Notes: generated from the letters alone by a model not told the origin. A DNA stretch of 27,458 bases from a virus (IMGVR_UViG_3300036835_000247:1-27458), one strand, 5' to 3'. Counted from the first letter of the stretch, positions 3,117 to 25,443 are shown. Made by a program: numbers and translations.

Positions 3117-3285
3117 GGCGGTCCGCACGGTTCGCGAGCACGTGCGCGCAAAGCTCGCCGGTTTTGATCTTCGCCAGGTGGAGCGGGAGCGGCGGCGGGC
3201 ATCGAGCGGCCGCCGCCGTTCCGCCGCTCCTGCCGTTCAAGCGCGGCTACCGATCGACGATTCGGCTACACTGACACCTCGATGA
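3085..3285 (+). CDS. Small basic protein directly upstream of TerL
   Basis: I use ATG 3085, although TTG 3076 is possible. The 66-residue product begins MAEQLDLMPPKAVRTVREHV, followed by a strongly basic low-complexity segment (RQVERERRRASSGRRRSAAP). It overlaps the previous gene by 32 bases and the TerL start by four (ATGA). The helix plus basic tail and the location invite comparison with small DNA-packaging accessory proteins, but no terminase-small-subunit motif is visible. Confidence 0.5.
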   Translation: MAEQLDLMPPKAVRTVREHVRAKLAGFDLRQVERERRRASSGRRRSAAPAVQARLPIDDSATLTPR

Positions 3286-4559
3286 TCGAGTTCGTTCCCG
3301 ACGCCACCGCCGCTGATATCCGCGCCGCTGTTGCCGCGCTTGACGATGCTCAGATTGAGCAATTGCTCTTCGATTGGCGGATGTGGGCGCGCCCGGAGCA
3401 GATCTGGCCGCCGGGCGACTGGCTGACGTGGCTGATCATTGGCGGCCGCGGCAGCGGGAAGACGCGGCCAGGTGCCGAGGCCGTGCGCGAGGTTGCTCGT
3501 GATCCGAACGCCGTGATCGCCTTGATTGGCCCTACAGCGTCCGATGTACGTCAGGTGATGGTTGAGGGCGAATCCGGATTGCTCGCGGTCTCGCCGCCTG
3601 CCGAACGGCCGATCTACAAGCCGTCGATCCGCGAGTTGCGCTGGCCGAACGGTGCGCACGGCTATACGTACTCGGCCGAAGAGCCGGAACGGCTGCGCGG
3701 GCCGCAGCACTCTTTCGCCTGGTTGGATGAGATTGCGGCGTACCCGGCGCTAAAGACGCTCTGGGATCTTATGGTTCCAGGCCTGCGACTCGGCAGCAAC
3801 CCGCGGCGCATCGCGACGACAACGCCCAAGCCGCTGCCGTTCCTCAAGCAACTGCTCGACTCGCCCGATACCGTGATCTCGCGGATGCGCACGCGCGACA
3901 ACCGCGCGAATCTGCCGGCATCGATGATTGCCGAGTTGGAGCGCGTGTACGCCGGTACGCGCATCGGCCGGCAGGAGCTCGAAGGCGAATTGCTCGAAGA
4001 AGCCGAGGGCGCGCTCTGGACGCGCGCGCGCATTGATGAGTTGCGCGTTCGCCAGGCGCCCGAGCTCGTGCGAATCGTCATCCCGATCGATCCGAGTGTC
4101 ACCAGCGGTCCGGATTCGGATGAATGCGGCATTGTGCCGTGCGGGCTCGGCGTGGATGGGCACGGCTATGTGCTGAGCGATCGCTCGGGCGTGTTTTCGC
4201 CCGATGCGTGGATCGGCCGCGCGGTGACGGCGTACGATGCGCTCGATGCGGATCGGATCATCGGCGAAGCGAACAACGGTGGCGATCTGATCGAATCGCT
4301 GTTGCGCACTCAGCGCAAGAACATCAGCTACGAAAAGGTTCACGCGAGCCGCGGCAAGATCACGCGCGCCGAGCCGATCGCGGCGCTCTACGAACAGGGC
4401 AAAGTGCATCACGTGGGCGGGTTCGAAAAGCTCGAAGATGAGATGACGAACTACGTACCGGGAGTTAGTAAGTCGCCGAACCGCATGGATTCACTCGTGT
4501 GGGGCTTGTCTTACCTGATGCTGAAACAACCGAAGATCGGGCGGGTGCATTCGGTATGA
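3282..4559 (+). CDS. terL: Terminase large subunit (packaging ATPase and nuclease)
   Basis: TerL drives ATP-powered translocation of phage DNA into the prohead through the portal and cuts the concatemer. The Walker A loop GGRGSGKT is at residues 54-61. The Walker B segment FAWLDE (about 145-150) ends in the expected acidic pair, and TTTP (179-182) fits the coupling motif. The RNase-H-like nuclease domain follows: candidate metal ligands are Asp270 in IPIDPS, an acidic residue in the GEANNGGDL segment (about 328-336) and Asp403 in NRMDSLVWG. At 425 residues it has the length of the compact TerL group (COG5323 type) seen in many HK97-like phages and gene transfer agents. The start overlaps the upstream gene by four bases. 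All key motifs are intact. Confidence 0.95.
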   Translation: MIEFVPDATAADIRAAVAALDDAQIEQLLFDWRMWARPEQIWPPGDWLTWLIIGGRGSGKTRPGAEAVREVARDPNAVIALIGPTASDVRQVMVEGESGLLAVSPPAERPIYKPSIRELRWPNGAHGYTYSAEEPERLRGPQHSFAWLDEIAAYPALKTLWDLMVPGLRLGSNPRRIATTTPKPLPFLKQLLDSPDTVISRMRTRDNRANLPASMIAELERVYAGTRIGRQELEGELLEEAEGALWTRARIDELRVRQAPELVRIVIPIDPSVTSGPDSDECGIVPCGLGVDGHGYVLSDRSGVFSPDAWIGRAVTAYDALDADRIIGEANNGGDLIESLLRTQRKNISYEKVHASRGKITRAEPIAALYEQGKVHHVGGFEKLEDEMTNYVPGVSKSPNRMDSLVWGLSYLMLKQPKIGRVHSV

Positions 4560-4569
4560 GGAGGTGCTT

Positions 4570-4860
4570 GTGCCAGAACTGCGATTGAGGCGCTTGCGCA
4601 TCGCTACGGAAATGCTGATGCGGTTTTTGCAAGAGCCGGTTGCGCCTGGTCTGGTCGCCGAAGGCATGCCGGCCGATGCACGAATCGTCAACATCGCATG
4701 GGAAAAGCCGGCCATTCTCGTGTTGTTTGTAGAAAGCGCGACGTTCGAACCGATTCCGCCGCCGTATACAACGCCGCCGTTGCTCGATGTCCGGTTTACC
4801 GGGCAGCTCGGCGGCGGCGCGAGCATTGCGGCGCCGGTGCCCATAAAGAACGGAGGTTAG
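4570..4860 (+). CDS. Hypothetical protein, 96 aa, downstream of TerL
   Basis: GTG 4570 is preferred because AGGAGG lies five bases upstream; GTG 4564 overlaps that site. The product starts MPELRLRRLRIATEMLMRFL and contains a central beta-like section (ARIVNIAWEKPAILVLFVES) and a proline-rich stretch (PIPPPYTTPP). No transmembrane segment or known motif is visible. It is the first of about eleven small genes between TerL and portal, a position where phages often carry accessory genes. Confidence 0.6.
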   Translation: MPELRLRRLRIATEMLMRFLQEPVAPGLVAEGMPADARIVNIAWEKPAILVLFVESATFEPIPPPYTTPPLLDVRFTGQLGGGASIAAPVPIKNGG

Positions 4861-4864
4861 AGTT

Positions 4865-5014
4865 ATGCCGTTAGTGCCGTTGATTCTTGTGATTGCCGCG
4901 TTTGTCTGCTTTGTACTCGCGGCCATTCAGATATCGAACACGCGGGTTAACTTGACGCCACTCGGGTTTGCGTGCGCCACGCTCGCGTGGATCCTGATCG
5001 CGTGGAAACTATGA
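4865..5014 (+). CDS. Small two-helix membrane protein, 49 aa
   Basis: ATG 4865 to TGA 5014 encodes a very hydrophobic 49-residue peptide. It has two predicted membrane helices (PLVPLILVIAAFVCFVLAAI and ACATLAWILIAWKL) joined by a short polar loop containing NTRVNLTPLG. Small proteins of this layout occur in many phage structural operons, sometimes annotated as holin-like, but I see no specific holin signature. The upstream GGAGG (4851-4856) and the four-base ATGA overlap with the next gene support expression. Confidence 0.7.
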   Translation: MPLVPLILVIAAFVCFVLAAIQISNTRVNLTPLGFACATLAWILIAWKL

Positions 5015-5271
5015 CGATCATCGAGCTGTTGGCGGGCCGCGCGAAGCGCATGATGGCCGAACGGGACGGCGCCGTAACGAAGGCGGCCGACAAAAATTCT
5101 GCTTCATTGAACCAGAATCCGGCTACGGCCGAAGCCGCTCGCGAGTTGCTTTCGATCGCGGGTGACCTGGGCGGCGAGCCGCTCACGATCAAACGGTTAT
5201 GGCCTGGTCGACGGCGTAATCCATCCGCCGGCGGTAACGGTCATAAGCGGCGAGCGGGCGGTCTACGGTGA
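5011..5271 (+). CDS. Hypothetical charged protein, 86 aa
   Basis: ATG 5011 is coupled by ATGA to the membrane-protein gene. The product begins MTIIELLAGRAKRMMAERDG, forms an amphipathic helical stretch through TAEAARELLSIAGDL, and ends in a basic Gly/Arg tail. The tail is encoded by the left arm of the GC-rich inverted repeat at 5250-5285, so the end of the gene seems to have been extended or replaced by that element. Function is unknown. Confidence 0.6.
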   Translation: MTIIELLAGRAKRMMAERDGAVTKAADKNSASLNQNPATAEAARELLSIAGDLGGEPLTIKRLWPGRRRNPSAGGNGHKRRAGGLR

Positions 5272-5285
5272 TTCCGCCCGCTCGC
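5250..5285. repeat. GC-rich inverted-repeat element, copy 1
   Basis: GCGAGCGGGCGG (5250-5261) and CCGCCCGCTCGC (5274-5285) form a perfect 12-bp stem with a 12-nt loop. The inner ten bases of both arms, GAGCGGGCGG and CCGCCCGCTC, recur exactly at 9062-9086 around a different loop. The left arm lies inside the 3' end of the preceding gene, and a strong intrinsic terminator follows 14 bases later. Confidence 0.7.
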
Positions 5286-5299
5286 TCGTTGAGTCGCTG

Positions 5300-5338
5300 G
5301 CGGCGGTCCGATCCAAAGCGGGCCGCCGCGTTTTTTTT
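5300..5338 (+). terminator. Rho-independent terminator
   Basis: GCGGCGGTCC (5300-5309) pairs with GGGCCGCCGC (5320-5329), with one G-U pair and loop GATCCAAAGC, and is followed by G and eight T residues (5331-5338). This is a textbook intrinsic terminator. It closes the transcript from the packaging genes and implies a fresh promoter for the small genes after 5400. Confidence 0.9.
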
Positions 5339-5418
5339 CAACGAGTTGCAGGATTCGGGAGATGTAGGCACGCCTGCCAATGGGATAGGGAGTGATCCGG
5401 CATAATGGTGGCTGAATT

Positions 5419-5451
5419 GGTTATGATAATCACTGTTATCAAAGGCTAACC
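5419..5451 (+). promoter_or_regulatory. Nested dyad over a start region, candidate operator
   Basis: TGATAA (5424-5429) and TTATCA (5436-5441) form a perfect inverted repeat with spacer TCACTG. GGTTA (5419-5423) and TAACC (5447-5451) add an outer pair. The segment contains a -10-like TATGATAAT, and its right side includes AAAGG, the ribosome-binding site for ATG 5452. Lying about 80 bases after a strong terminator, it could be a repressor-controlled promoter or an RNA fold that hides the ribosome-binding site. Confidence 0.5.
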
Positions 5452-5619
5452 ATGCGATTGCGATGTACGAATTGCGGAGAGTCGGTTTCCTCTGAGGTTC
5501 CGGATGATACCGTCGTTCGGGCGTGCCTCTTCTGTCCTGAGTGCATCGAGCAAATGGCCAAGGACGGGCGGTTGTGTGACAAGCCTCAAACGAAGTCAAA
5601 AAATAAGCAGCGAAGCTAA
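5452..5619 (+). CDS. 55-aa zinc-ribbon-like protein
   Basis: ATG 5452 has AAAGG six bases upstream. The peptide begins MRLRCTNCGES and contains CTNC (Cys5, Cys8) and CLFCPEC (Cys25, Cys28, Cys31), the two-knuckle layout of a zinc ribbon, then a Lys/Gln-rich basic tail. Small zinc ribbons of this kind commonly mediate DNA, RNA or protein contact; the partner is unknown. The gene ends just after an A6 run (5598-5603) and overlaps the next Cys-rich frame in the +1 register. The two may therefore once have been one gene. Confidence 0.65.
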   Translation: MRLRCTNCGESVSSEVPDDTVVRACLFCPECIEQMAKDGRLCDKPQTKSKNKQRS

Positions 5620-5788
5620 GGCGAAAGCGGCGGCGGATGGCCGGGATTTCGTCGATTGCCGCAAGTACCAGCGTTCCGGCTTCCACGATTGGGAGGAGTG
5701 CATTGATCCGAAATCTGGCGGGTTCATTCGCTGTAGGGTGTGCGGTTACTCGATCGACTGCGAAGATCCGGATGGGGATTTAGGCTGA
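5576..5788 (+). CDS. Second Cys-rich zinc-type protein, overlapping frame
   Basis: The convincing part is the last 50 residues: DFVDCRKYQRSGFHDWEECI and then CRVCGYSIDCEDPDGD, with cysteines at 28, 42, 53, 56 and 62 counted from GTG 5576. No ATG lies near the start of the conserved part. GTG 5576 gives 70 residues and ATG 5504 gives 94. It overlaps the preceding zinc-ribbon gene by 44 bases in the +1 frame. Either it is translated by reinitiation, or the two are a single zinc protein split by a one-base change in the A6 run at 5598-5603. A terminator follows at 5813. Confidence 0.55.
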   Translation: MTSLKRSQKISSEAKAKAAADGRDFVDCRKYQRSGFHDWEECIDPKSGGFIRCRVCGYSIDCEDPDGDLG

Positions 5789-5812
5789 CAGTTTCACAGA
5801 CCGACTGTTTCC

Positions 5813-5845
5813 GGCTTCCGTTCCGAGCGGACGGAAGCCTTTTTT
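5813..5845 (+). terminator. Rho-independent terminator
   Basis: GGCTTCCGT (5813-5821) and ACGGAAGCC (5831-5839) form a perfect 9-bp stem with loop TCCGAGCGG, followed by six T residues (5840-5845). It closes the two zinc-protein genes as their own short transcript. Confidence 0.9.
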
Positions 5846-5874
5846 ATTGGCTGTTCAAAGAAAGGCGGTTTCTC

Positions 5875-6112
5875 ATGCTTTCGTCCAAGTATGATCGGTT
5901 CCTTTTCGAGCTCCAGGCCGCGGCCGCGGTCGCGGACGGCGAACACGGCACAAGACTCGCGGCGCAAGCCGATCGATGCGATTGCCGCGGGATCGCCCGC
6001 GTCCGTGATCGAGCAACAGCAACAGACCGCGGCGCGCTTGGTCGAAGAGTACGTGGAGTACGTTTGGGACGGCGCGGAGAAGCCCGGTTGGGTCACGCAA
6101 GCCGGCCTGTGA
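5875..6112 (+). CDS. Hypothetical protein with an apparent +1 frame change
   Basis: ATG 5875 follows AAAGGCGG and opens MLSSKYDRFLFELQAAAAVA, which looks real. From about 5960 that frame becomes arginine-rich. The protein-like sequence continues in the +1 frame: KPIDAIAAGSPASVIEQQQQ, then ARLVEEYVEYVWDGAEKPGW and VTQAGL, ending at TGA 6112. The best reading is one protein of about 78 residues crossing a +1 shift between 5940 and 5975, through an indel, a sequencing error or recoding. No obvious recoding signal is seen. Alternatively the second part starts at ATG 5891 in its own frame. Function is unknown. Confidence 0.5.
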
Positions 6113-6240
6113 GCGGGTTTTCCGCAGTCGTATCGAGGCTTGCCGGTTCCAGTTGGGCCTGGGCCGGATGGCGATCGAAGGCGACGGCTGCGGAGCGGCG
6201 GCGATTGGGCGGCCCGTCTCGCTCAATCGCCGCAGTGTGA
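6109..6240 (+). CDS. Possible 43-aa basic peptide
   Basis: GTG 6109 overlaps TGA 6110-6112 (GTGA), in keeping with the coupling style of this genome. It would encode MSGFSAVVSRLAGSSWAWAG followed by a basic tail. The C-terminal third is read from a GC-rich inverted-repeat element (6193-6233). No family recognised, and it may be a chance continuation of the frame opened at 5875. Confidence 0.3.
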   Translation: MSGFSAVVSRLAGSSWAWAGWRSKATAAERRRLGGPSRSIAAV

Positions 6241-6253
6241 ATTTGGGTTGCAA
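6193..6253 (+). repeat. GC-rich hairpin plus GGGTTGCAA tail, copy 2
   Basis: GCGGCGATTG (6198-6207) and CAATCGCCGC (6224-6233) form a perfect 10-bp stem. The tail AGTGTGAATTTGGGTTGCAA (6234-6253) follows and runs straight into ATG 6253. The tail differs at three of 26 positions from those at 6756-6780 and near 22477-22501. The 14 bases CGCTCAATCGCCGC at the right arm are also found after the copy at 9062. Confidence 0.65.
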
Positions 6254-6426
6254 TGCGGAAGTCCGATGTTGAGGCCGTGGTCGCGGCGCTAGAACTGATG
6301 ATGAGACTCCGGTCGCAAACACGTTACAGGAGTCGGGGTTTCTTACTCTTGAACGCAGCGTGCCATCGGCTCTCCGATCGATTCTGGCGTGAAGCACGGG
6401 CGGCGCGATCGAGTTGCAAAAAATGA
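6253..6426 (+). CDS. Small basic protein, 57 aa
   Basis: ATG 6253 overlaps the last base of the GGGTTGCAA motif, and no Shine-Dalgarno sequence is evident. The product begins MRKSDVEAVVAALELMMRLR and ends in a basic Cys-containing tail (REARAARSSCKK). It ends in an ATGA overlap with the DnaA-like gene at 6423, suggesting they act together. No family recognised. Confidence 0.5.
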   Translation: MRKSDVEAVVAALELMMRLRSQTRYRSRGFLLLNAACHRLSDRFWREARAARSSCKK

Positions 6427-6725
6427 GCTGGAAGTCCGGCCGGCCGAAAGCGGTTTGCGAAGCGATTCAAATCGCGGCGCGCGCCTTCGGGTTAGAGCCG
6501 GAAGCGGTCTTGCGGCGAACGAACGAGCGGCAGCCGGTAGCAGCTCGCCGCTATGTCGCCGTGCAACTGCGGGTACGCGGCTACAGCACTACGCAAATAG
6601 GCCGTGTTCTCGGGCTGCACCATACGACCGTGCTTTACCATCTGCAAGCCAGGCCGAGATGCGCACCGCCGCGGCCGCCGATCGAGTGGAACGGCATCGA
6701 TGAAAGCGGGGTGTGGGCGATTTGA
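6423..6725 (+). CDS. DnaA domain-IV-like DNA-binding protein
   Basis: ATG 6423 overlaps the stop of the previous gene. The 100-residue product contains ARRYVAVQLRVRGYSTTQIG followed by RVLGLHHTTVLYHL (about 57-74). This closely follows the signature of the DnaA C-terminal DNA-binding domain (Bac_DnaA_C), where a helix-turn-helix ends in a GxxHTTVxxA motif. The rest of DnaA, including the AAA+ ATPase, is absent, so this is a stand-alone DNA-binding domain with a short N-terminal helix and a proline-rich tail. In the family this domain reads DnaA boxes. Here it may regulate transcription or compete with or recruit host replication; that is inference. Confidence 0.75.
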   Translation: MSWKSGRPKAVCEAIQIAARAFGLEPEAVLRRTNERQPVAARRYVAVQLRVRGYSTTQIGRVLGLHHTTVLYHLQARPRCAPPRPPIEWNGIDESGVWAI

Positions 6726-6730
6726 CAAGT

Positions 6731-6781
6731 GAGCGGCGAGTAGGCGGGCGGTTCCGCCGCCGTGTGAAGTAGGGTTGCAAA
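6731..6781 (+). repeat. GC-rich hairpin plus GGGTTGCAA tail, copy 3
   Basis: GAGCGGCG (6731-6738) leads into GGCGGGCGG (6743-6751), which pairs with CCGCCGCC (6754-6761) with one unpaired base. The tail GTGTGAAGTAGGGTTGCAAA (6762-6781) follows. The 30 bases 6752-6781 match 22473-22502 at 29 positions. ATG 6786 follows after four bases, and there is no ordinary ribosome-binding site in between. Confidence 0.7.
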
Positions 6782-6785
6782 TTCT

Positions 6786-7001
6786 ATGTGTAAGCTCTGC
6801 GATGAATCACCGGATGGCGGTTATGAATATTGCCAGGATTGCGGCTGTCTGATTTGCTTCGACGTGATCGATAGCGACGATGTTATTAGGCCGGCGTATG
6901 TGACTTCCAGCGGCGATCTGTTCTGCGATCGTTGTGGCTCGGCATGCGATGCCGCAGAGGATGAAGCGATGGAGTTCATTGACAGCGGATTTGAGGACTA
7001 A
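6786..7001 (+). CDS. Nine-cysteine zinc-binding small protein
   Basis: The 71-residue acidic protein has cysteines at 2, 5, 16, 19, 21, 24, 47, 50 and 54. They are arranged as CKLC, CQDCGCLIC and CDRCGSAC, enough for two zinc sites in a treble-clef or RING-like fold. The tail is acidic (AAEDEAMEFIDSGFED). The gene starts right after the conserved element tail. Together with the two zinc proteins at 5452-5788 it makes this accessory stretch notably rich in metal-binding mini-proteins, which in phages often bind host RNA polymerase, nucleases or nucleic acid. No specific partner can be read. Confidence 0.7.
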   Translation: MCKLCDESPDGGYEYCQDCGCLICFDVIDSDDVIRPAYVTSSGDLFCDRCGSACDAAEDEAMEFIDSGFED

Positions 7002-7005
7002 CCCA

Positions 7006-7401
7006 ATGGGCGATCAAAACGTGGGCGCCGGCATCTTCACGGTAAAGCATACTTTCACCCGTGAAGAGCTGCGCGAGCTCGGGCTCCGTCTCGCCGGCAA
7101 AGCACAGGAAGTCTACAACGCGAAATCGGCGAAGAAGGCAGCCGCCGCGGCCGCGGCCGGCCATATTCAGGAGCTTGAAGACGATGTGGCGGGCTTGGTT
7201 CAAAAGCTCAATCAGCTTTGGGAGCCGCGCGAGATGGAATGCCAGATTTACTACCACACGCCGAAACACGGGTACAAGACGATCATCCGGCCGGATACCG
7301 GCGAAACCATTCGTGAGCCGGAACCGATGAGCGAGGCGGAAATGCAATCGAGTTTCGTGTTTGTGGACACGCCGCCCGAATCAAAAGACAAACCGCAGTA
7401 G
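7006..7401 (+). CDS. Hypothetical coiled-coil protein, 131 aa, upstream of portal
   Basis: ATG 7006 is chosen; the frame is open upstream but overlaps the zinc protein. The N-terminal part (FTVKHTFTREELRELGLRLA) leads into a helical Ala/Lys-rich segment (NAKSAKKAAAAAAAGHIQEL) and a second helix (DDVAGLVQKLNQLW). A beta-like region follows with MECQIYYHTPKHGYKTIIRP, then an acidic tail. Similar small helical proteins sit near phage packaging genes, but no named family is recognised. The portal gene follows after nine bases. Confidence 0.7.
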   Translation: MGDQNVGAGIFTVKHTFTREELRELGLRLAGKAQEVYNAKSAKKAAAAAAAGHIQELEDDVAGLVQKLNQLWEPREMECQIYYHTPKHGYKTIIRPDTGETIREPEPMSEAEMQSSFVFVDTPPESKDKPQ

Positions 7402-7410
7402 GAACAAGCT

Positions 7411-8850
7411 ATGCCGGCAACCAACGTTTTTTCTCGCTTGGGCTTCTTCCGTAAGGCGGGTTCCGAACAGCCGATCATTAACGACGGCAACGGCAACCGT
7501 CCTTCCATCCGCGTCACGGCCGGCGGCGGTTTGCCCGGCGCGGTCTGGACTCCGTTTCAGTATCTCGATCAATCGCGCGAAGGCTATCAGCGCAATCCGG
7601 ATGTCTACGCCTGCATTTCCCTGATCGCCACGGCCGGCAAACAGGTGAAATGGTGGGATGGCGGCAGTGGCTCGAAATCCCTCACGCCGCCCGATATTCT
7701 CGCAAAGCAGGTGCTACCGGCCGCGGCGCTCGCGGATCCCAAGATCGGCGCCGCGGCGAAGGCGGCGGATCCGCGGGCATCCTATGCGATGCTCGTACGC
7801 GCCGGCGGCGCGAGTTTCATCGAGAATTGGCTCAGCTATCTTTTGCTCGCGGGTAACTCCTATATCGAAATCGAGCGGATCAGCGGGCGGCCGGCGGGGA
7901 TCTTTCTAGACAGGCCGGATCGCGTCACGCTACCGCCAGGCGCGAAGATTCCGGATGCCGGCAAGAAGCCGGCCGCCTGGAAGGTCTTTCCGCCGTCTGG
8001 CGGATCCGGCCGGATTGTCCCATCGGCGGATATGGTTCAGTCCAAGCTGTTCTCGCCGCTCGATGATGTGTTCGGCATGGCGCCGCTCACCGCGGCCATG
8101 TTGCTAGTAGACACGCAAAACGAAGGTGTGACACTCGCCAAACGCATGCTGCAACGCGGGTTCGCGCCTGGTTGGATTGGGGCGGCGAAGGATTCGATTT
8201 GGGAAGAGCCGCAGATTGCACAGCTCAAAGAGCGGATCAAGCAATCGAAGCAAAACGCTGAAGAAATCTTTTTGGAAAACGCCGAGTGGCATCAGATGGG
8301 CTTTCCGCCGGCCGATTCCGGGGTGACGGAAATAAAAGTTCTGTCTAAGCGCGATATCGCGGCCGTGTACCATGTGCCGTCACAGTTGATCGGTGACACC
8401 CAATCGCAGACGTACGCCAATTACAAAGAGGCGCGCCGTGCGCTCTACATGGAAGCGGTTGTACCGTTGCTCGTGCAATTCCGCGACGATTGGAACCGTA
8501 CGATCGGAGCTGAGCTGCGATCGCCGCTCGATTTCGACAAAGACAGTTTTGACGCCATCACCGCGGCGCGCGATGAGGCTACCGATCGCGTGGTTAAGCT
8601 ATTCCAGAACGGACTAATCACGCAGAACGAAGGACGCGAAGATCTGGACTACGATCCGGTGAAGGGCGGCGATCAATTCTACGCATCGGCGAATTTCCTG
8701 CCGCTCTCCGATGGCGCGGAGCCGGCGGCGCCGGCGCCGCCAAAAGCGATCCGGCCGCCCGAGATTCTGAAAGAGCTACCACCGGGGGTTGTGGAATGCC
8801 CGGAAGATGTACGCGCGCGGTTCGCGGCGGGCGGCGGGAATGGCGCATAA
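7411..8850 (+). CDS. Portal protein, HK97 family
   Basis: The portal forms the dodecameric channel at one capsid vertex through which DNA is packaged and ejected and to which TerL docks. AGGA lies seven bases before ATG 7411. The 479-residue product shows the family pattern (Phage_portal): NPDVYACISLIATAGKQVKW near 57-76, NWLSYLLLAGNSYIEI, PLDDVFGMAPLTAAMLLVDT, and KRMLQRGFAPGWIG in the central helical part. The conserved EIKVLSKRDIAAVYHVPSQL and NYKEARRALYMEAVVPLL lie towards the C-terminus. A proline-rich tail (PAAPAPPKAIRPPEIL) ends the protein. Length is normal and it appears intact. Confidence 0.93.
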   Translation: MPATNVFSRLGFFRKAGSEQPIINDGNGNRPSIRVTAGGGLPGAVWTPFQYLDQSREGYQRNPDVYACISLIATAGKQVKWWDGGSGSKSLTPPDILAKQVLPAAALADPKIGAAAKAADPRASYAMLVRAGGASFIENWLSYLLLAGNSYIEIERISGRPAGIFLDRPDRVTLPPGAKIPDAGKKPAAWKVFPPSGGSGRIVPSADMVQSKLFSPLDDVFGMAPLTAAMLLVDTQNEGVTLAKRMLQRGFAPGWIGAAKDSIWEEPQIAQLKERIKQSKQNAEEIFLENAEWHQMGFPPADSGVTEIKVLSKRDIAAVYHVPSQLIGDTQSQTYANYKEARRALYMEAVVPLLVQFRDDWNRTIGAELRSPLDFDKDSFDAITAARDEATDRVVKLFQNGLITQNEGREDLDYDPVKGGDQFYASANFLPLSDGAEPAAPAPPKAIRPPEILKELPPGVVECPEDVRARFAAGGGNGA

Positions 8851-9115: not shown

Positions 9116-9423
9116 AACGCGCGCCGGCGCCGCCTGAGCTCCGACTCTTTACCCGCGTGCGGATTTCGGCCGATGGCATCGGCGCCTGTTCCGGCCGGAT
9201 CGAGGATATCCGCGAAGTGAGCGAGTTGCCGGATACGCCGCTCATGCCGGCCGAGCTGCCGCGCTCGATCCTTCGCGAGTGGAACGTTACCCGCGTGGCT
9301 CTGATTTCGTTTCATGCCTATCCGGGGCAGGAATTGATTTTCGGCGCGCTCGAAATCGGCGGACGTTGGTACGATTTGCGCCGGCAAGAGCTCTTGCTCG
9401 AAGTGATCGGACAACCGCTATGA
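9112..9423 (+). CDS. Hypothetical protein, 103 aa
   Basis: ATG 9112 overlaps the previous stop, and ATG 9420 of the next gene overlaps this stop. The product starts MKRAPAPPELRLFTRVRISA and is mainly beta (TRVALISFHAYPGQELIFGA, EIGGRWYDLRRQELLLEVIG). A small beta-barrel is plausible. No family recognised. Tight coupling to portal and minor head genes suggests a minor virion or assembly role. Confidence 0.65.
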   Translation: MKRAPAPPELRLFTRVRISADGIGACSGRIEDIREVSELPDTPLMPAELPRSILREWNVTRVALISFHAYPGQELIFGALEIGGRWYDLRRQELLLEVIGQPL

Positions 9424-10181
9424 AAACAGCCGTCGCAACTACACGTACCTGGTGGGCGTTCGATCGCCAGGCGACCGAAGATCAACAAGTATTTGCGAAG
9501 GTGGCGCGCCGGCGCTTGCGCGATGAATCCGCGCGGGCGGCGGCCGCGTATCGAGCGGGCGGGCGGGCGGCGGCGACGGATGCAATTGTCGATTCGCTTT
9601 GGATCGATTACCTGCGGCGGGTGTGGGTGAACGTGGTAGTCAATGCCGGCGCGCATACGTTCGTGATCTTGGGCGCCGCTGAGAATGATCATATTTTGGA
9701 AGCCGCCGCCGGAAGCTATAACGCGCGCAATGCTGCCGAGCGCGGCGCCGGAATCGCCAACACTTCGCGCAATAAGGTCAAGAGCTCGATCGAGGAAGGC
9801 GAGCGGAAGCGCGAGCCGGTGGAACGGATCGCGCGCCGCATCATCGCGGACGGCGAAGCGGCCGCGGCATGGCGATCGCTCACGATCGCGTCAACCGAAG
9901 TACATGCGGCCGCGTGCATGGGAAGTCTTACGGCGGCGATCGCCAGCGGGCAAAGGCTCGCGAAAATCTGGTACGGGCCGCGGTTGCACTCGATCACCTG
10001 CGATCAGCATAAGACCGTCCGCGGCGCTCGCCGGCCGCTCAATGTCGCCTTTGAAGTTGCGAACGATTACGAACCGGATGCCGGCGCCGATTCGATGATG
10101 TATCCGGGTGACGGCGAAGCCGGCGCGCGGGCTTCGAACGTCATCAATTGCCGTTGCTGGTTGGATTTCGAGGTTTTATGA
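9420..10181 (+). CDS. Minor head / head morphogenesis protein (Mu F / SPP1 gp7-like)
   Basis: The 253-residue protein has a helical N-terminal half and a C-terminal domain ending in DSMMYPGDGEAGARASNVIN then CRCWLDFEVL. The P-G-D..G.A...NVINCRC ending is characteristic of phage minor head proteins of the Mu F / SPP1 gp7 group, which sit inside the capsid near the portal. The preceding SITCDQHKTVRGARRPL is also typical, with the conserved CxxH-like pattern. The N-terminal part carries AYRAGGRAAATD, encoded by an isolated GAGCGGGCGGGCGGGCGG tract (9553-9570) without the second hairpin arm. The gene is joined to both neighbours by ATGA overlaps. Confidence 0.8.
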   Translation: MKTAVATTRTWWAFDRQATEDQQVFAKVARRRLRDESARAAAAYRAGGRAAATDAIVDSLWIDYLRRVWVNVVVNAGAHTFVILGAAENDHILEAAAGSYNARNAAERGAGIANTSRNKVKSSIEEGERKREPVERIARRIIADGEAAAAWRSLTIASTEVHAAACMGSLTAAIASGQRLAKIWYGPRLHSITCDQHKTVRGARRPLNVAFEVANDYEPDAGADSMMYPGDGEAGARASNVINCRCWLDFEVL

Positions 10182-11485: not shown

Positions 11486-11502
11486 GATTGGAGCAACCGC
11501 AC

Positions 11503-12201
11503 ATGGCTGAAACCGAAAAAAGCTATACCGAATACTGCCCGCTCGAAGCGAAGGCGATCGCCGAAGATGGAACTTTCGAGGGCTACGCATCCACGTTTAA
11601 CAACGTCGATCTGCAAGGCGACATGGTGATGCCGGCGGCGTTCGCGACAACGCTCAAAAAGCACTCGGGCAAAGTGCCGGTGTTCATGGCGCATCGCAGT
11701 GATATGCCGGTGGGCTTCGGCATGGAAGCGCGCGAAGATGCCAAAGGGTTGTGGGTGAAGGGTCAGTTTACGCTCGGATCCGATGGCGGCCGGAACGCGC
11801 GCGCCACGGTCTTGCATGCGATCGAGCTCAACCACAAGCCGGGTTTGTCGATCGGCTACCGCCTGCTCAAAGACGGCGCGGAGTGGGACGAATCGACGGG
11901 CGTGCGGAAGCTGAAAGCGATCGATCTACTTGAATACTCGATCGCGCTCGTTCCGGCGAATCCGAAGGCGCGGATTACGGCGGCGAAGTCGATCACGGAT
12001 TGGAGTATTCGCGAGTTTGAGGAACACCTGCGGGATGTAGGGTTCTCGAAGGAAGCGGCGCGCACGATTGCGAGCCGCGGATTTGCTGCGCTCGATCGGC
12101 GGGAAGCTGACGCGGCGATAGCTGAGCAGAAGCGCGCGGGCGAAGCCTTTATGGCCGAGCTGCGTCAGGCATCACTCAGTTTCGAAATGATCAGAGGTTA
12201 A
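11503..12201 (+). CDS. Prohead protease, HK97 family
   Basis: This herpes-assemblin-type serine protease cleaves the scaffold region of the capsid protein during head maturation. ATG 11503 has GGAG nine bases upstream; the open frame reaches back to TTG 11488. The family hallmarks are in order: GTFEGYASTFNNVDLQGDMV (about 23-42), the histidine in VPVFMAHRSDMPVG (His64), the serine in HKPGLSIGYR (Ser116), and LLEYSIALVPANPKARI (about 142-158). At 232 residues it has the usual length, with a helical C-terminal extension (EEHLRDVGFSKEAARTIA). The capsid gene follows after four bases. Confidence 0.92.
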   Translation: MAETEKSYTEYCPLEAKAIAEDGTFEGYASTFNNVDLQGDMVMPAAFATTLKKHSGKVPVFMAHRSDMPVGFGMEAREDAKGLWVKGQFTLGSDGGRNARATVLHAIELNHKPGLSIGYRLLKDGAEWDESTGVRKLKAIDLLEYSIALVPANPKARITAAKSITDWSIREFEEHLRDVGFSKEAARTIASRGFAALDRREADAAIAEQKRAGEAFMAELRQASLSFEMIRG

Positions 12202-12205
12202 GCAA

Positions 12206-13420
12206 ATGGCCGAAGGAACAGCAGTCCTACTCAGTGCCGACGATCGCGCGGCGATTCTCGGCATGTACAACGAGATGAAGGCAACCACGGTTGCCATCAA
12301 GGCGAAGCTCGAAGCCGGCGAGCCGGCGGGCGAGCTCAAGGTGAAGTTTGAAAAGATCGATCAAAGCCTGGTCGAGTTTCACGCAAAGCACGAGACGATG
12401 ATCAAGCGCGCCGATGATCTCGAAGCGATGATCAAGCGCGCTCGCGAAGAAGCCGAGCCGCCGAAATCGATCGGCCGCCAGGCGCTCGAAAATCCGGCGA
12501 TGCTCGCCTTTTTGAAGAAGTGGCAACCGGGCGGCGTGGTGGTCGAATGCAAACGCGGGCCGATGTTGGAAGTTAAGGACATTACCGGCCTATCCGGCTT
12601 GTTGCCGCAACGGTTAGACCAAATCGCTACCGGGCCGCGGTTGCCGTTCGGCGTGCGTACGCTGATTCCGCAGGGTCGGACTACGGCGGGCTCGATCAGC
12701 TACATAGAGGAAACCAGTTTTACGAACGCCGCGGCGCCGGTGGCTGAAGGTGCGGCGAAACCGAAATCCGACAAGGTTTTCACGCCAAAGACTCTGCCGG
12801 TAGAAACCATCGCCCACTACTTCAAGATCTCGCGACAAGCTGCCGATGATCTTCCGTTTGTTCTAGCGCAAATCGAATCGAACGGGATTTACGGCGTGCA
12901 AATCGTGGAAGACAATCAGCTCTTGAACGGTAGCGGTGTGTCGCCGCAGTTGAAGGGTTTCATGCAGGTTGCCGGAGCTGCGCCGGCGCCGCCGGCCGGG
13001 CCGCCGGCTTCTACTCTGGTGGATGCGATCGGCGTAGCGGCGGTCGATCTTGCGGCAAAAGGCTACTTGCCCGATGGCACCGTGGTCAATCCGGCCGATT
13101 GGGGCGCGGTTTCCATGCTCAAGAACACGCTCGGCAATTACCTGTTTTCGAATCCGATGGACTACAGCGGAAATCAGCGGGTATGGGGCTTGCGTCTTGC
13201 GAGTAGCGCGAACATGGGCGCCGGAAACTTCCTGGTGGGTGCGTTTCAGGGCAATTCGCTCTTGCTCGATAGAGAAGATGTGAACGTCCAAATCGCAAAC
13301 CAGAATGAAGACGACTTCATTAAGAACATGTACACCGTTCTGGTGGAAGAGCGGTTGGTACTGCTGATCTTCCAGGTGGCGGCGTTCGAAAAGGGCGTAG
13401 TGCCGGCGGGTACGCTCTAA
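12206..13420 (+). CDS. Major capsid protein, HK97 fold
   Basis: This protein builds the icosahedral shell. AGAGG lies eight bases before ATG 12206. Residues 1-90 are helical and charged (KAKLEAGEPAGELKVKFEKI, HETMIKRADDLEAMIKRARE), matching the HK97 delta domain that acts as an internal scaffold and is removed by the protease encoded just upstream. The mature domain follows with LPFGVRTLIPQGRTTAGSIS, YIEETSFTNAAAPVAEGAAK, the strand/helix TLPVETIAHYFKISRQAADD, and NQLLNGSGVSPQLKGFM. The C-terminal NMYTVLVEERLVLLIFQVAA is the usual last segment. At 404 residues it is normal and intact. A Pro/Ala-rich loop (PAPPAGPPAS) sits in the middle. Confidence 0.94.
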   Translation: MAEGTAVLLSADDRAAILGMYNEMKATTVAIKAKLEAGEPAGELKVKFEKIDQSLVEFHAKHETMIKRADDLEAMIKRAREEAEPPKSIGRQALENPAMLAFLKKWQPGGVVVECKRGPMLEVKDITGLSGLLPQRLDQIATGPRLPFGVRTLIPQGRTTAGSISYIEETSFTNAAAPVAEGAAKPKSDKVFTPKTLPVETIAHYFKISRQAADDLPFVLAQIESNGIYGVQIVEDNQLLNGSGVSPQLKGFMQVAGAAPAPPAGPPASTLVDAIGVAAVDLAAKGYLPDGTVVNPADWGAVSMLKNTLGNYLFSNPMDYSGNQRVWGLRLASSANMGAGNFLVGAFQGNSLLLDREDVNVQIANQNEDDFIKNMYTVLVEERLVLLIFQVAAFEKGVVPAGTL

Positions 13421-15408: not shown

Positions 15409-15662
15409 GTCGCCGCGAAATGCACTTCCGGCATGGCTTTTATTGCGGATTGGCGGATCGCCTACTTGGCACGTTTGAATATGCGATGCGGAGGCCGAGT
15501 AGTCCAGAGGCTCTCACGATCGAACAATACTTGTCCGATGTGCAGGAGATCCAGGGCAAATTGGTTGCCGCCGGGCACTATGGGCCGGATGAAGATCCTT
15601 TGGAGCGGGAGTATCCGGGCTTTTCGGCGCGGTTGCAAGAAAATGAAGCGGGGACGCAATGA
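15405..15662 (+). CDS. Hypothetical protein, 85 aa
   Basis: ATG 15405 overlaps the preceding stop. The product begins MSRREMHFRHGFYCGLADRL and continues with helical sequence (TIEQYLSDVQEIQGKLVAAG), ending NEAGTQ. The same last four residues AGTQ and similar DNA (GAAGCGGGGACRCAATGA) occur at the end of the previous gene. This short duplicated gene-end cassette suggests insertion by recombination at the stop/start junction. No family recognised. Confidence 0.55.
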   Translation: MSRREMHFRHGFYCGLADRLLGTFEYAMRRPSSPEALTIEQYLSDVQEIQGKLVAAGHYGPDEDPLEREYPGFSARLQENEAGTQ

Positions 15663-18505: not shown

Positions 18506-18810
18506 CGCTCGCCGAGCTCTCCTATCTCAGTGCGGCGGCGACGGCGCGCGAAATCCGACAGGACTATTACACCGCTCGGATTGTCGCGATGCTCTCCGCG
18601 GTCAACACCAAAAACGGCCGTTATGATCCTGCAAAATACATGCTCAACAAAGAGGCGATCAACCGCGAGCGTGCCGAACGCGAAGCAGCTCGGGAACCGC
18701 TAACCGGCGAACAGGTGATAACGCGTTTCCGGCAGTTGGGCGTACCGATCATCGATATGCGATCGCGCACCAAAAACGGAGGAAAAACGAATGGCTTCGA
18801 TTTCAGGTAG
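18304..18810 (+). CDS. -1 frame extension of the tail-assembly chaperone (gpGT-like)
   Basis: This frame is open from just after a TGA at 18301-18303 to TAG 18810. From about 18436 it reads WARLWAFHRDRSGITATEFR then SLTLAELSYLSAAATAREIR, YYTARIVAMLSAVNTKNGRY and QVITRFRQLGVPIIDMRSRT. No plausible start codon precedes the conserved part; the first ATG is 18589, well inside it. A -1 shift out of the 18023 frame is therefore the best explanation, as for lambda G/GT. The listed coordinates are the open interval, and the true junction probably lies about 18420-18440. I could not find a textbook X XXY YYZ heptamer there. The region ends 20 bases inside the tape-measure gene. Confidence 0.7.
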   Translation, partial: DCAYVLGGGLHNDCSGADEGDSGHIARGCAPYDRGPDGPRFSARKWARLWAFHRDRSGITATEFRSLTLAELSYLSAAATAREIRQDYYTARIVAMLSAVNTKNGRYDPAKYMLNKEAINRERAEREAAREPLTGEQVITRFRQLGVPIIDMRSRTKNGGKTNGFDFR

Positions 18811-21800
18811 CGGGCTCTCGCTCGGAACGCTATTTGTCAACATCGCGGCAAATATCCAGGATGCGCTTTCCTCGCTGAGCAAATTTGGAAGCGAAGCGGC
18901 GGATGCGGTAGATAAAGGGCTCGGCCAGGTCGAAAAGGAAGCAAATGACGCGGCCAACGAGATCGATAAATCGTTTAGCGGGCTCGCGAAAGATGTTTCT
19001 TCGGTACTCGGTGCGCTCGCGGGTGCGCTTGCGCTTGGCAAGTTCATTTCCGATGCGCAGGACTACGCAAAAGAACTCCGGGGCGTGCAAAAGTCCTTCG
19101 AAGCGCTGTACGGTGCATCGCAAGACACTCGCGATGTACTCGATTCGATAAGCACTATTGCCAAGTCCTCACCGTTTGATTTCAAGACGGTCGCCGAAGG
19201 CGCGAAAAATCTGGCACTCGCCGGCATGAGCGCGCAGGACGCGAACAAGGCGATTCAGGCGGTAGTTGATACCGTCGCGGCGCTCAAGCTTGGGCCGGAT
19301 ACCATCGGCAAGGTTACTGATGCACTCGCCACGATGCAGGCACGCGGAGAAGTAACCACGCGCTCGATGATCGGGCTTGTAAAGGAAGGCATCCCGGCAT
19401 GGCAGCTACTTGCGGATGAAATCGGCGTTAGCGTTCCGGCCGCACAGGATTTGGTCGCCAAGCACGCGATTGATTCGGCTACGATCATCGAGGCAGTTGT
19501 CAACGGCATGGGCGATGCCTACGCCGGCGCCGCGCTGAAAGCTTCCCAAACATGGGGCGGCGAGCTAAAACGCATTTCCGAAGGTGCAACCGAAGCCGGC
19601 GCATCAATCATCGGGTCCATTACTTCGTTTTTGAATAAACTCGCGCCGGCATTGGAGCCGGTAACGAAGGCGCTCGAAGGCTTTTCAGACTGGTGGAAAA
19701 GCCTGCCGGGACCGATCAAGGATGCCGCGGCCGCGATCGCGATCGCCGTCTCGGCTGTGGCGGGGCTGATCGGCGTGATTACGGCGGCCGGCGCCGCGAT
19801 TGCCGGCATCGAGCTCGCGCTCGGCGCGCTCGGCGTAGCGATCGGTCCGGTACTCGGCGTGGCGGCCGCCGTGGCGGCGGTAACGGCCGCGTTGATCTTC
19901 CTGGGCGGTTGGGTCAGTGATCATTGGGACGCGATCAGTAAGGCACTCACGGAGGCCTGGGACGGCATCAAAGAGATTTGGGGCGGTACATGGAGCTCGA
20001 TCACATCCACGCTCACCGGGTTGTGGGATGGCTTTATCCAGTCCACTAAACGCGATTTCGAGGCACTGGCGACGTTTTTCGCCGCAATTTGGGATGGCCT
20101 GGTCGCCGCCTACAAGGCGATCTGGGGCGCCATCTTCGATGTCCTGAAAGGCGTTTGGGCGATCATTCAGACCGAAGCGCACATCTTCGATCAAATTCTG
20201 AGCTACCTCTTGCCGATCTGGGAGCCGCTAAAGCAGGCTTTTTCGGCCGCGTGGCAATGGGTTCTCGATACGCTCACCGGGATCTGGTCCAAGATCCAGG
20301 CGACGGCGGCGCTACTCGGCGGCGCCGCGGCGCAAGTGTCGCAAGCGGTGGTCGCTCAAGTTCAGCAGACCAATCAGCAGCTCGATCAGGCGGAAAAGGA
20401 TCGCCTGAAAAAGCAGGAAGATTACGCGAAGCTCGCGAAAGAGCTCGGCGTGCAAACCACAGCCGATTTACAGGCCGATGCCGATCGAAAGCGCGCGATC
20501 TATAACCAGATGGCCGCGGATGTGGCGGCCGGCATCGGCAGTGAAAACGATTTGGCGGCCGCCCGTCTCGCCGTTCAGGCGGCCGATAAAGCCGTAACCG
20601 ATGGAACGCAAGCGCTACAACAGGCGCGCGCGAAGGCGGCGGCCGAGGCTAAAAAGCAGGCGGATGAAGAGCAGCGCAATTTGAAAGAGAGTCAACAACT
20701 CGTTGACAAACTCGAAAAAGCCTACGATCAGCTCGATAAGACCAATCAACGTTGGGGCACTACCGCCGTCAAGGCGATGGGCAAACTTCAGGAGGAGGGT
20801 CTGAAGGCGGTCAAGATTACCGTTAGCCTGGTCGACCAAATCTCGAATATCAATCCCGCGATCGGCGCATGGGTCAAACAGGTACAACAGGTCAACGCAG
20901 CATTCAAGGACCTTGGGATCACCAGCGAGAAGCAGCTCGGCTTGATCGCGGACAAAGCCGATTCAGATTTAAAGGTTGTCGATGATGCACGCAAGAAGAA
21001 CATCGCTACCGAAGCGGACTATCAGGCGGCACTCGAAAAGAGCAAACAAGCGCATAAAAATCTGGCGGACTATATCAATCAAACCGAGCTCGCCGCCTAC
21101 AAAGCTCTCGGAGTCACTTCGAGCCAGGTTCTACAGCAACAGGTTGCCGACGCCGAAAAGGCATACCAGACGCTCAAAGCGAGCGGCGATGCAAGTACGG
21201 CGGACCTATACAACGCATGGCAAGCGGTTCTGAAGGCACAACAGGCCGTTGCGGACAATCTCAACAAAGAAGTAATTGACGCATACCACGCCGTAGGGCA
21301 ACAGGCGCCATCGGAGCTACAGAAGATCGTTACCGACACGCAACATGCGTATGAAACCATCGCGGCTTCTGCCGGCGAAAACTCGATCGCCGCTCAACAG
21401 GCCTGGATTACGAACACCGAAGCAGCATTCAAGGAAATCATCGCCGCGGGCGGTACGGTAACAACGGCTCAACAGAACGAGTTAGATAAGCAGAAGCAGC
21501 AGTTAGAAAACAGTCTGCCGGAGCATTTCGCGACGTGGAAAAAGACCTACGATGCAGTCCACGACACGATCAGTCAAACCTTCGATTCGCTCGAAGAGCG
21601 ATTGATCACGGGTAAAGGATCTTTCAGCGAAATCCTCACGAACATGTGGCAAGGGCTTGCAAAGGCGGCGCTCGATGCCTTTGTTAACCCTGTAAAAACC
21701 GCGATCGAGGACTTCATCGCGAACACTATTGCGGATTTGCTGAGCGGCCGCGGGCTCGGTGGTGTTCTCGACAGCATCAAGGAAATCGGTACTCAGCTCG

Positions 21801-22432
21801 CAGGTGTGTTCACGGCCGCTAACGATGTGGCGGATACGGCGGGCGATGTGGCAAAGGGCGCCGGCGGTGCAGCGAGCAGTGGGGCAAGCTCGGCGGGCAG
21901 CGCGATATCTCAGGTGGCATCTGGTCTAACTGGACTTGTTAGCGCCGTGAGCGGTGTGGTCAGTGCGATTTCCGGAGTAGTGAGCAATTTCCAGCTACAC
22001 GCCGTGAATAAGTCGCTCGACGTGATCGTGAATCATACCTTGCGGATCTTCAACGAGCTGTTCAATCTGCGCGCGGATGAATGGGATCGGTGGGGCGGAT
22101 GGATGCAAATCAAGGATGACATCCTGAACCGCCTGAATACGATCATGGACGATGCGAATTTAGCGCGCGATCAGAATAGCGACATGATTCATGCGCTCAA
22201 CTCGATCATGGACTCGAGCTCGGCTGGCGTGGCAATTCTCCAATCGATGGCGGATGCGCAAGCGGCTACCGACGCTCAGCAAACCACGCTATTTGACAAG
22301 CTCTTCGCCAGTCTGGATCGAATTACTGCCGGCCAGCAACAGGCAATGAACGTTACGTTAGCCGGTTCGGATCCGGCTTTGGTTGCCGCAAAACTTGCTC
22401 AGCAATTGAGACTGCAGGGTGCGGTTGCCTAA
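18791..22432 (+). CDS. Tail tape measure protein
   Basis: This 1213-residue protein sets tail length and is ejected at infection. GGAGG lies eight bases before ATG 18791. The N-terminal region is helical (GLGQVEKEANDAANEIDKSF) and leads to a conserved tape-measure domain: AYGASQ-type segments, SSPFDFKTVAEGAKNLALAG, then TTRSMIGLVKEGIPAWQLLA. Residues about 314-373 form a long Ala/Gly/Ile hydrophobic region likely to cross the membrane. About 373-485 carries a run of Trp repeats (WDGIKEIWGGTWSSIT, LWDGFIQ, IWDGLVAAYKAIWGAIF). The rest is a very long coiled coil rich in Gln, Lys, Ala and Asp. At the usual 1.5 angstrom per residue the tail would be about 180 nm long. No lysozyme or peptidase motif seen. 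Confidence 0.94.
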   Translation: MASISGSGLSLGTLFVNIAANIQDALSSLSKFGSEAADAVDKGLGQVEKEANDAANEIDKSFSGLAKDVSSVLGALAGALALGKFISDAQDYAKELRGVQKSFEALYGASQDTRDVLDSISTIAKSSPFDFKTVAEGAKNLALAGMSAQDANKAIQAVVDTVAALKLGPDTIGKVTDALATMQARGEVTTRSMIGLVKEGIPAWQLLADEIGVSVPAAQDLVAKHAIDSATIIEAVVNGMGDAYAGAALKASQTWGGELKRISEGATEAGASIIGSITSFLNKLAPALEPVTKALEGFSDWWKSLPGPIKDAAAAIAIAVSAVAGLIGVITAAGAAIAGIELALGALGVAIGPVLGVAAAVAAVTAALIFLGGWVSDHWDAISKALTEAWDGIKEIWGGTWSSITSTLTGLWDGFIQSTKRDFEALATFFAAIWDGLVAAYKAIWGAIFDVLKGVWAIIQTEAHIFDQILSYLLPIWEPLKQAFSAAWQWVLDTLTGIWSKIQATAALLGGAAAQVSQAVVAQVQQTNQQLDQAEKDRLKKQEDYAKLAKELGVQTTADLQADADRKRAIYNQMAADVAAGIGSENDLAAARLAVQAADKAVTDGTQALQQARAKAAAEAKKQADEEQRNLKESQQLVDKLEKAYDQLDKTNQRWGTTAVKAMGKLQEEGLKAVKITVSLVDQISNINPAIGAWVKQVQQVNAAFKDLGITSEKQLGLIADKADSDLKVVDDARKKNIATEADYQAALEKSKQAHKNLADYINQTELAAYKALGVTSSQVLQQQVADAEKAYQTLKASGDASTADLYNAWQAVLKAQQAVADNLNKEVIDAYHAVGQQAPSELQKIVTDTQHAYETIAASAGENSIAAQQAWITNTEAAFKEIIAAGGTVTTAQQNELDKQKQQLENSLPEHFATWKKTYDAVHDTISQTFDSLEERLITGKGSFSEILTNMWQGLAKAALDAFVNPVKTAIEDFIANTIADLLSGRGLGGVLDSIKEIGTQLAGVFTAANDVADTAGDVAKGAGGAASSGASSAGSAISQVASGLTGLVSAVSGVVSAISGVVSNFQLHAVNKSLDVIVNHTLRIFNELFNLRADEWDRWGGWMQIKDDILNRLNTIMDDANLARDQNSDMIHALNSIMDSSSAGVAILQSMADAQAATDAQQTTLFDKLFASLDRITAGQQQAMNVTLAGSDPALVAAKLAQQLRLQGAVA

Positions 22433-22443
22433 TAAACGGTGAT

Positions 22444-22502
22444 GGAGCGGCGGGCGGGCGGACCCTTCGCCGTTCCGCCGCCGTGTGAAGTGGGGTTGCA
22501 AA
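22444..22502 (+). repeat. GC-rich hairpin plus GGGTTGCAA tail, copy 7
   Basis: GGAGCGGCGGGCGGGCGG (22444-22461) can fold onto TTCCGCCGCCG (from 22473). GTGTGAAGTGGGGTTGCAAA (22483-22502) follows, four bases before ATG 22507. Bases 22473-22502 agree with 6752-6781 at 29 of 30 positions. It fills almost the whole gap between tape measure and hub genes, and the downstream gene has no other ribosome-binding site. Confidence 0.75.
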
Positions 22503-25116: not shown

Positions 25117-25443
25117 ATGCAAATCAAACACAAGTTATCGCCGGCCGTGCAGGGCTTCGCCCAAACCACACTGAAAGAACTGAACGAACTGCGTACGCAG
25201 TATCTTGCCGCGCTCGGAGCGGCGAAGGAAATCGAGCTCCGAAGTCAAACGCTGCAACAGGCGCTGTCGCAACAGCTCGCGCTCGTTCAGGCGGCCGAAG
25301 GATTGCCGCAACCGATCGAGCCGTACCGGCTATCGCCCGATTGCTCGATGATGATCGGCGAGATTGCAGATTTGCCGGCGGCCGCGGATCCCGAGCCGGT
25401 GGGCTTGAGCTCGGGCTCTGTGAATGGGGCAAATAATGGGTGA
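25117..25443 (+). CDS. Hypothetical coiled-coil protein, 108 aa, before tail fibre
   Basis: ATG 25117 has GAGGAAGG eight bases upstream and is preferred. The N-terminal two thirds form a helix (TTLKELNELRTQYLAALGAA, ELRSQTLQQALSQQLALVQA) and the end is Pro/Asp/Ser-rich. It overlaps the fibre gene start by eight bases. A chaperone or fibre-base role fits but is not shown. Confidence 0.6.
   Translation: MQIKHKLSPAVQGFAQTTLKELNELRTQYLAALGAAKEIELRSQTLQQALSQQLALVQAAEGLPQPIEPYRLSPDCSMMIGEIADLPAAADPEPVGLSSGSVNGANNG

Follow-up and report, generated by a model that had tools for sequence, protein, structure and literature searches.

Why does a virus with an HK97-type capsid carry, between its TerL and portal genes, a 2,851 bp gap occupied by small open reading frames (ORFs) only? 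The question is raised by a 27.5 kb virus record, IMGVR_UViG_3300036835_000247, whose full 27,458 nucleotides are called here the window. Coordinates count from its first nucleotide; the island's genes, terminators and repeats, its two flanking genes and the third copy of the repeat element lie on the plus strand, no strand being assigned to the dyad at 5424–5441. The gene order is TerL (3282–4559), the gap, portal (7411–8850), a MuF-like gene (9420–10181), an S78 protease (11488–12201), the HK97-type capsid (12206–13420) and the tape measure (18791–22432). The gap, hereafter the island, contains ten ORFs that could be genes, named A to J. We regard it as quite probable that the island is a phage region of genomic plasticity, that is, a hotspot of accessory genes with a fixed place, the TerL–portal junction, in a clade of uncultivated siphophages from soil whose heads are of the HK97 type. 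The term soil is suggested by the contig set, and siphophage by the tape measure and tail genes.

A variable interval between conserved head genes

TerL, the left flank of the island, is an ORF with 60–71% identity to the TerL of relatives L003–L022, and portal, the right flank, matches Pfam Phage_portal (E=2.9e-40). TerL relatives were found in 416 viral contigs, and those above about 60% identity have portal, MuF and capsid in common as well. All are uncultivated metagenome contigs, some of them fragments, the closest having a TerL 71% identical to that of the window. The comparison set comprised 17 further uncultivated phages from the same clade. Across the 18 measured loci (two pairs of which are duplicates), the TerL–portal interval ranges from 12 to 6,001 bp, with a median of 2,745 and a standard deviation of 1,409. 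At the measured loci of the clade, the portal–MuF gap is 17–2,594 bp (median 678), the MuF–protease gap −6 to 1,527 bp (median 524) and the protease–capsid gap −22 to 13 bp. On these figures, no other interval of the head module is as long or as variable as that from TerL to portal. In L020, TerL and portal are 12 bp apart and the island is missing.

Gene content turns over as well. When the gap ORFs were compared all against all, B alone crossed subclades broadly, the others being common mainly within subclades. The earlier note on this DNA had proposed comparing the presence and absence of single genes among relatives. B is present in the interval in about 14 of 18 distinct relatives (13 clear cases and one borderline), J is in the gap in three phages including that of the window, and the remaining genes are subclade-specific; an invariant gene order was not seen. 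The position between core genes is thus fixed and content and length vary, as in an accessory or plasticity region, and the same note's reading of the island as an accessory (moron) region is supported. The occurrence of B, I and A at other positions or in unrelated phages further points to horizontal transfer.

The gaps of several relatives hold genes of recognizable families. L003 carries an N4/N6 DNA methylase (N6_N4_Mtase, E=9e-43), L010 a ParB-like/methylase fusion (ParB_N + N6_N4_Mtase), and L016 a ParB_N protein, a C5 methylase (E=2e-51) and antitoxins of the BrnA and HicB types. L022 has a CopG-type antitoxin that falls narrowly short of the Pfam cut-off. Proteins with a LuxR-like helix-turn-helix (HTH) and CxxC motifs were recognized by eye in the gaps of L012, L013, L016 and L021. 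Given these methyltransferases, ParB-like proteins and antitoxins, anti-restriction or counter-defence cargo appears typical of the site. The expectation that anti-defence genes are often found in such a region fits the relatives but drew no support from the window's own genes, for which Pfam, PHROG (sub-threshold), NCBIfam (empty or sub-threshold) and PADLOC (empty; a library of defence genes, not of anti-defence genes) gave no anti-defence match. As a separate observation, a proline-rich small protein (PPI.LPP.IWP...GW...VD..PKK) recurs in the TerL–portal gaps of L006, L009, L011, L017 and L031.

B, a small protein with two hydrophobic segments

The most unusual component of the island is B (4865–5014), a coding-like gene of 49 aa bearing the signature RxNLxxxGLAxW. 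Members of its family have 44–50 aa and, judged by hydropathy only, two hydrophobic segments in every case, which agrees with the membrane peptide announced earlier. In an alignment of 27 rows (A3, first row a consensus-like query), a turn with R/K-x-N-L joins the two segments and is followed by G-L-A-x-W. In L018, B sits between the Neck1 and tail terminator genes instead of in the TerL–portal interval. A scan resting on one short peptide pattern yielded 57 viral loci with B, and B was found in 40 contigs or more, most of which show no relation to the window's TerL (with one exception among the loci of the first scan). Among the families listed, terminases, portals, capsid and tail proteins are its chief neighbours elsewhere, with HNH endonucleases and methylases also present. 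For close pairs the dN/dS ratios are mostly 0.1–0.6; judged by these, B is under purifying selection.

No Pfam, PHROG or PDB family was found for B, and it was absent from 289 genomes sampled from one class, a search made without a positive control. A tblastn search of 50,697 cultured-phage records with B, H and I gave no match, although the low-complexity filter may hide matches to B. Tentatively, B may stand for an undescribed, widespread family of two-helix membrane proteins of about 45 residues (RxNLxxxGLAxWVLxxL). It would spread on its own, as one mobile micro-gene, between soil phages that are not related, often into head-gene junctions, and would serve the same purpose at the host membrane in all of them, such as excluding superinfection or blocking a defence triggered at the membrane; we hold this to be possible and somewhat doubtful.

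The other small genes of the island

Coding potential was assessed by a codon-usage test trained on the long genes of the window (log-likelihood ratio, LLR, and sliding frame score). Coding-like scores were obtained for A, B and J and for the C-terminal portion of F, weaker ones for C, H and I; the test gives no support to D, E and G, and G looks non-coding. The earlier count of about eleven genes shrinks to ten ORFs, about nine of them plausible as genes; the interval does hold small ORFs only.

A (4570–4860, 96 aa, LLR +21) has a GTG start behind GGAGG, and both A and B lie 3′ of TerL with good Shine-Dalgarno (SD) sequences. A weak relative of A is found on the far side of portal in L020 (36%, E=7e-5). 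The start of C (5011–5271, 86 aa) overlaps the stop of B. Its coding signal departs from the frame near 5190, possibly by a +1 change as in F; a weak match of the shifted part to G007 falls on the end of a long ORF, is probably due to chance and was set aside. In F (5875–6112), a small gene that is apparently split, the N-terminal part lies in the frame of 5875 and the C-terminal part in that of 5891, the sliding codon score passing by +1 from one to the other at about 5955–5980. Since the C-terminal part is preceded by an N-terminal part one frame back, F appears to be one gene, broken or +1 shifted; the frame change may reflect a broken gene, a programmed shift or an assembly error. G (6253–6426) is a 57-aa ORF with an LLR of −12 and a doubtful gene.

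Three cysteine-rich mini-proteins are encoded. D (5452–5619, 55 aa) is zinc-ribbon-like (CxxC..CxxC), and I (6786–7001, 71 aa) has four CxxC motifs within the pattern MCxxC..CQDCGxLICFDV..RPAYVTSSGDLFCDxCG; by these paired motifs both are convincing as genes, despite the atypical codon use of D. E (5579–5788, about 69 aa), which overlaps D, is less so, with a single CxxC and five cysteines. The suggestion of metal-binding mini-proteins is thus supported by D and I and less clearly by E. Homologues of I, 55–67% identical, are found in three phage contigs (L357–L359) unrelated at TerL and portal. When these contigs were searched with the window's genes, I alone matched, a sign of transfer between unrelated phages; a 41% identical copy also lies elsewhere, downstream, in the L012 genome. 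A predicted fold of I (predicted local distance difference test, pLDDT, 56.5) was unusable.

For H (6414–6725, 99–103 aa) the best family is Bac_DnaA_C (E=1.8e-6), which covers most of the domain. The score of 28.3 bits lies below the curated Pfam cut-off of 31.5, so that the DnaA-like domain read earlier survives as a DnaA domain IV-like HTH rather than as an assigned domain IV. J (7006–7401, 131 aa) is a relative of phrog_12688 (best member E=1.5e-8). In the window, L003 and L011 it lies between TerL and portal; in L007, L010, L012, L013, L015 and L019 it follows MuF; these positions tie it to the head module and not to the gap. Its AlphaFold model (pLDDT 71), a long helix and a beta hairpin, had no PDB match at E≤0.001.

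Terminators, hairpins and repeats

The two intrinsic terminators reported earlier were recovered at 5300–5329 (11 pairs, T8) and 5813–5839 (11 pairs, T6). Terminator-like hits number 15, against 15.5 in shuffled sequences, and these two are by far the strongest; as predicted from sequence, the units A-B-C and D-E are each closed by one of them. Long inverted repeats number 14 in the window against 3–5 across four shuffles. Three of them are intergenic in the island (5250–5285, 5813–5839 and 6198–6233), which also contains GC-rich hairpins. The first, a 12-bp perfect inverted repeat GCGAGCGGGCGG..CCGCCCGCTCGC, covers the end of C, and together with the first terminator (5250–5329) it has a folding energy of z=−5.0 relative to shuffles. 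The operator-like dyad claimed for the island, TGATAATCACTGTTATCA at 5424–5441, is perfect over 6+6 bp but statistically weak: two matches with at most two mismatches occur against 0.43 expected, and 9% of shuffles reach two. It is at best a possible operator. Near the left end of the window, a strong operator-like inverted repeat, TTACGATTATCGC-atgc-GCGATAACCGTAA, was noticed at 117–146.

The several hairpin cassettes described earlier reduce to one element that is truly repeated, a hairpin with a 19-nt start-associated repeat GTGTGAANNNGGGTTGCAA. It has three copies (at 6235, 6762 and 22483), a number reached in 0 of 100 shuffles. Copy 1 (6198–6253), made of the hairpin 6198–6233 and GTGTGAATTTGGGTTGCAA, precedes G; copy 2 (6741–6780) precedes I; and copy 3 (22440–22501), outside the island, precedes an ORF at 22507–24927. 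The copies are up to 16 kb apart, and the best two are 94% identical over 34 nt. The folding energy of their hairpins is unexceptional against shuffles (z −0.5 to −1.1). The element was not found in the relatives, and an exact search of IMG/VR for its stricter form CGTGTGAAGTRGGGTTGCAAA matched nothing else.

Two related candidates were dropped. The hairpin GAGCGGGCGG..CCGCCCGCTC is uninformative as a special mobile palindrome, at least 119 stretches in IMG/VR matching it. GTTGCAA alone was considered as a start signal, five of its eight copies lying just 5′ of an ATG (p=0.004 among 10,000 words); one copy, at 15632, is inside a reading frame, and only the 19-nt element was retained. No Rfam RNA or tRNA was found in the window. 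Repeats of other kinds were seen at 25801–26661, where blocks of 60–90 nt, 71–84% identical, form tail-fibre-like repeats within an ORF starting at 25424, and in L004 (8000–19251) and its duplicate L005, where many gene junctions are filled with heptamers capable of pairing (TCAGCNN forward, GCTGANN reverse), which frequently end just 5′ of an ATG.

Interpretation of the island

How genes are exchanged, when they are expressed and what each small gene does we infer as follows. Small genes would be gained, lost and swapped at the TerL–portal site, where exchange may be tolerated because a core gene stands on either side and terminators and hairpins act as buffers; the cargo could then change without harm to expression of the head operon. 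In this phage the cargo would comprise small metal-binding proteins (D, I and probably E), an HTH of the DnaA-box-binding type (H) and proteins of unassigned kind, most likely directed early at the host's DNA replication, at its regulators or at defence proteins; the functions of D, E, H and I can only be proposed in this way, since the window's own genes have no anti-defence match. B is probably inserted in the membrane, and would travel with the site and also move between phages, J being a recurrent head-module protein.

Several observations weigh against a plasticity region. GC content is the same, 59.1%, in the island as a whole and in the window, only D-E (53.7%) and I (51.9%) being lower. 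A search for promoters gave five promoter-like hits against 5.0 expected by chance and did not identify a promoter of the island's own. B and J recur too regularly for random morons, B being close to a core gene of the interval and J acting as a repeated member of the head module and not as a moron, and no island gene of the window has a confident functional family. The relatives are contigs only, partly fragments; a host assignment through the window's TerL was given up, the nearest cellular genomes being alphaproteobacterial (53%) and too distant to name a host.

The island could instead be a packaging or head accessory module, its small proteins aiding TerL or portal as motor regulators, portal chaperones or decoration proteins, like the small head genes of other siphophages. 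The recurrence of J in the relatives' head module, the position of A and B behind TerL with good SD sequences, and small genes in some relatives' gaps that look by eye like virion genes are what such a module would show. We nevertheless find it unlikely: L020, with TerL and portal nearly adjacent, has none of the island, gene content turns over between subclades, and the relatives' gaps hold methylases and antitoxins. Decay of the middle of the island (C–G) into broken or spurious ORFs would fit the non-coding appearance of G, the frame changes of F and perhaps C, and the atypical codon use of D and E. Against it stand the intact paired CxxC motifs of D, the intact terminators and the conservation of the neighbouring I at 55–67% in unrelated phages, and the frame changes may be assembly errors or programmed shifts; we judge such decay quite unlikely.

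B might also be a holin or other lysis protein, and part of the island a displaced lysis cassette. With 44–50 aa, two hydrophobic segments and a basic turn, it fits the description of a small hydrophobic protein with 1–3 transmembrane segments; one copy, in L156, lies directly 3′ of a putative endolysin gene; and with no endolysin among the top PHROG families of the relatives' other genes, their lysis genes were not located. The gene neighbourhood is nevertheless unsupportive, with a single endolysin, on the upstream side, in about 50 upstream and about 50 downstream neighbours in other phages, among the matches listed, and terminase, portal, capsid and tail genes dominating, while matches to holin PHROGs are insignificant (E≥0.13). 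This explanation was rejected as very unlikely.

As a plasticity region, the island would locate a storage site of exchangeable, probably counter-defence genes in a group of uncultivated soil phages. Candidates could then be picked by position alone, by mining this interval in related phages. B adds a family of tiny, probably membrane-inserted proteins, encoded on many unrelated phage contigs and absent from the profile libraries searched, whose function is directly testable.

Comparison with known systems

The repeat element resembles the start-associated sequences (SAS) and extended SAS (ESAS) of cluster K mycobacteriophages (PMC3203893) in being a repeated motif just 5′ of start codons with inverted repeats upstream. 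It differs in having three copies only, with none in relatives and none exactly elsewhere in IMG/VR. It thus neither precedes many starts nor is conserved in relatives, and we do not class it with SAS/ESAS.

Like the morons of lambdoid phages (as described in PMC4378225), the island consists of extra genes between adjacent core genes, with terminators present. In contrast to them, there are several genes per unit, single-gene promoter–terminator units were not shown, and composition is not distinct overall. The antiviral hotspots of P2 and P4 (Rousset et al. 2022, PMC9122126) share with it a fixed locus, cargo exchanged among related phages and a role in conflict; theirs are defence systems against other phages, whereas here relatives carry methyltransferases, ParB-like proteins and antitoxins, and the window mini-proteins only.

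In Mu-like phages of Pseudomonas aeruginosa, regions of genomic plasticity A–I, including an anti-CRISPR region, have been described (PMC4378225). They too hold short, variable ORFs (34–100 codons there), mostly of unknown function and some counter-defence, at fixed sites between conserved genes. They belong to another phage group and another site, whereas the present region lies between TerL and portal, has no low-GC signature over the whole island and no anti-CRISPR match. The plasticity region itself is therefore of an ordinary, known kind; what it adds is an interval of unusual variability within an uncultivated clade, together with one membrane micro-protein that is widespread and unclassified.

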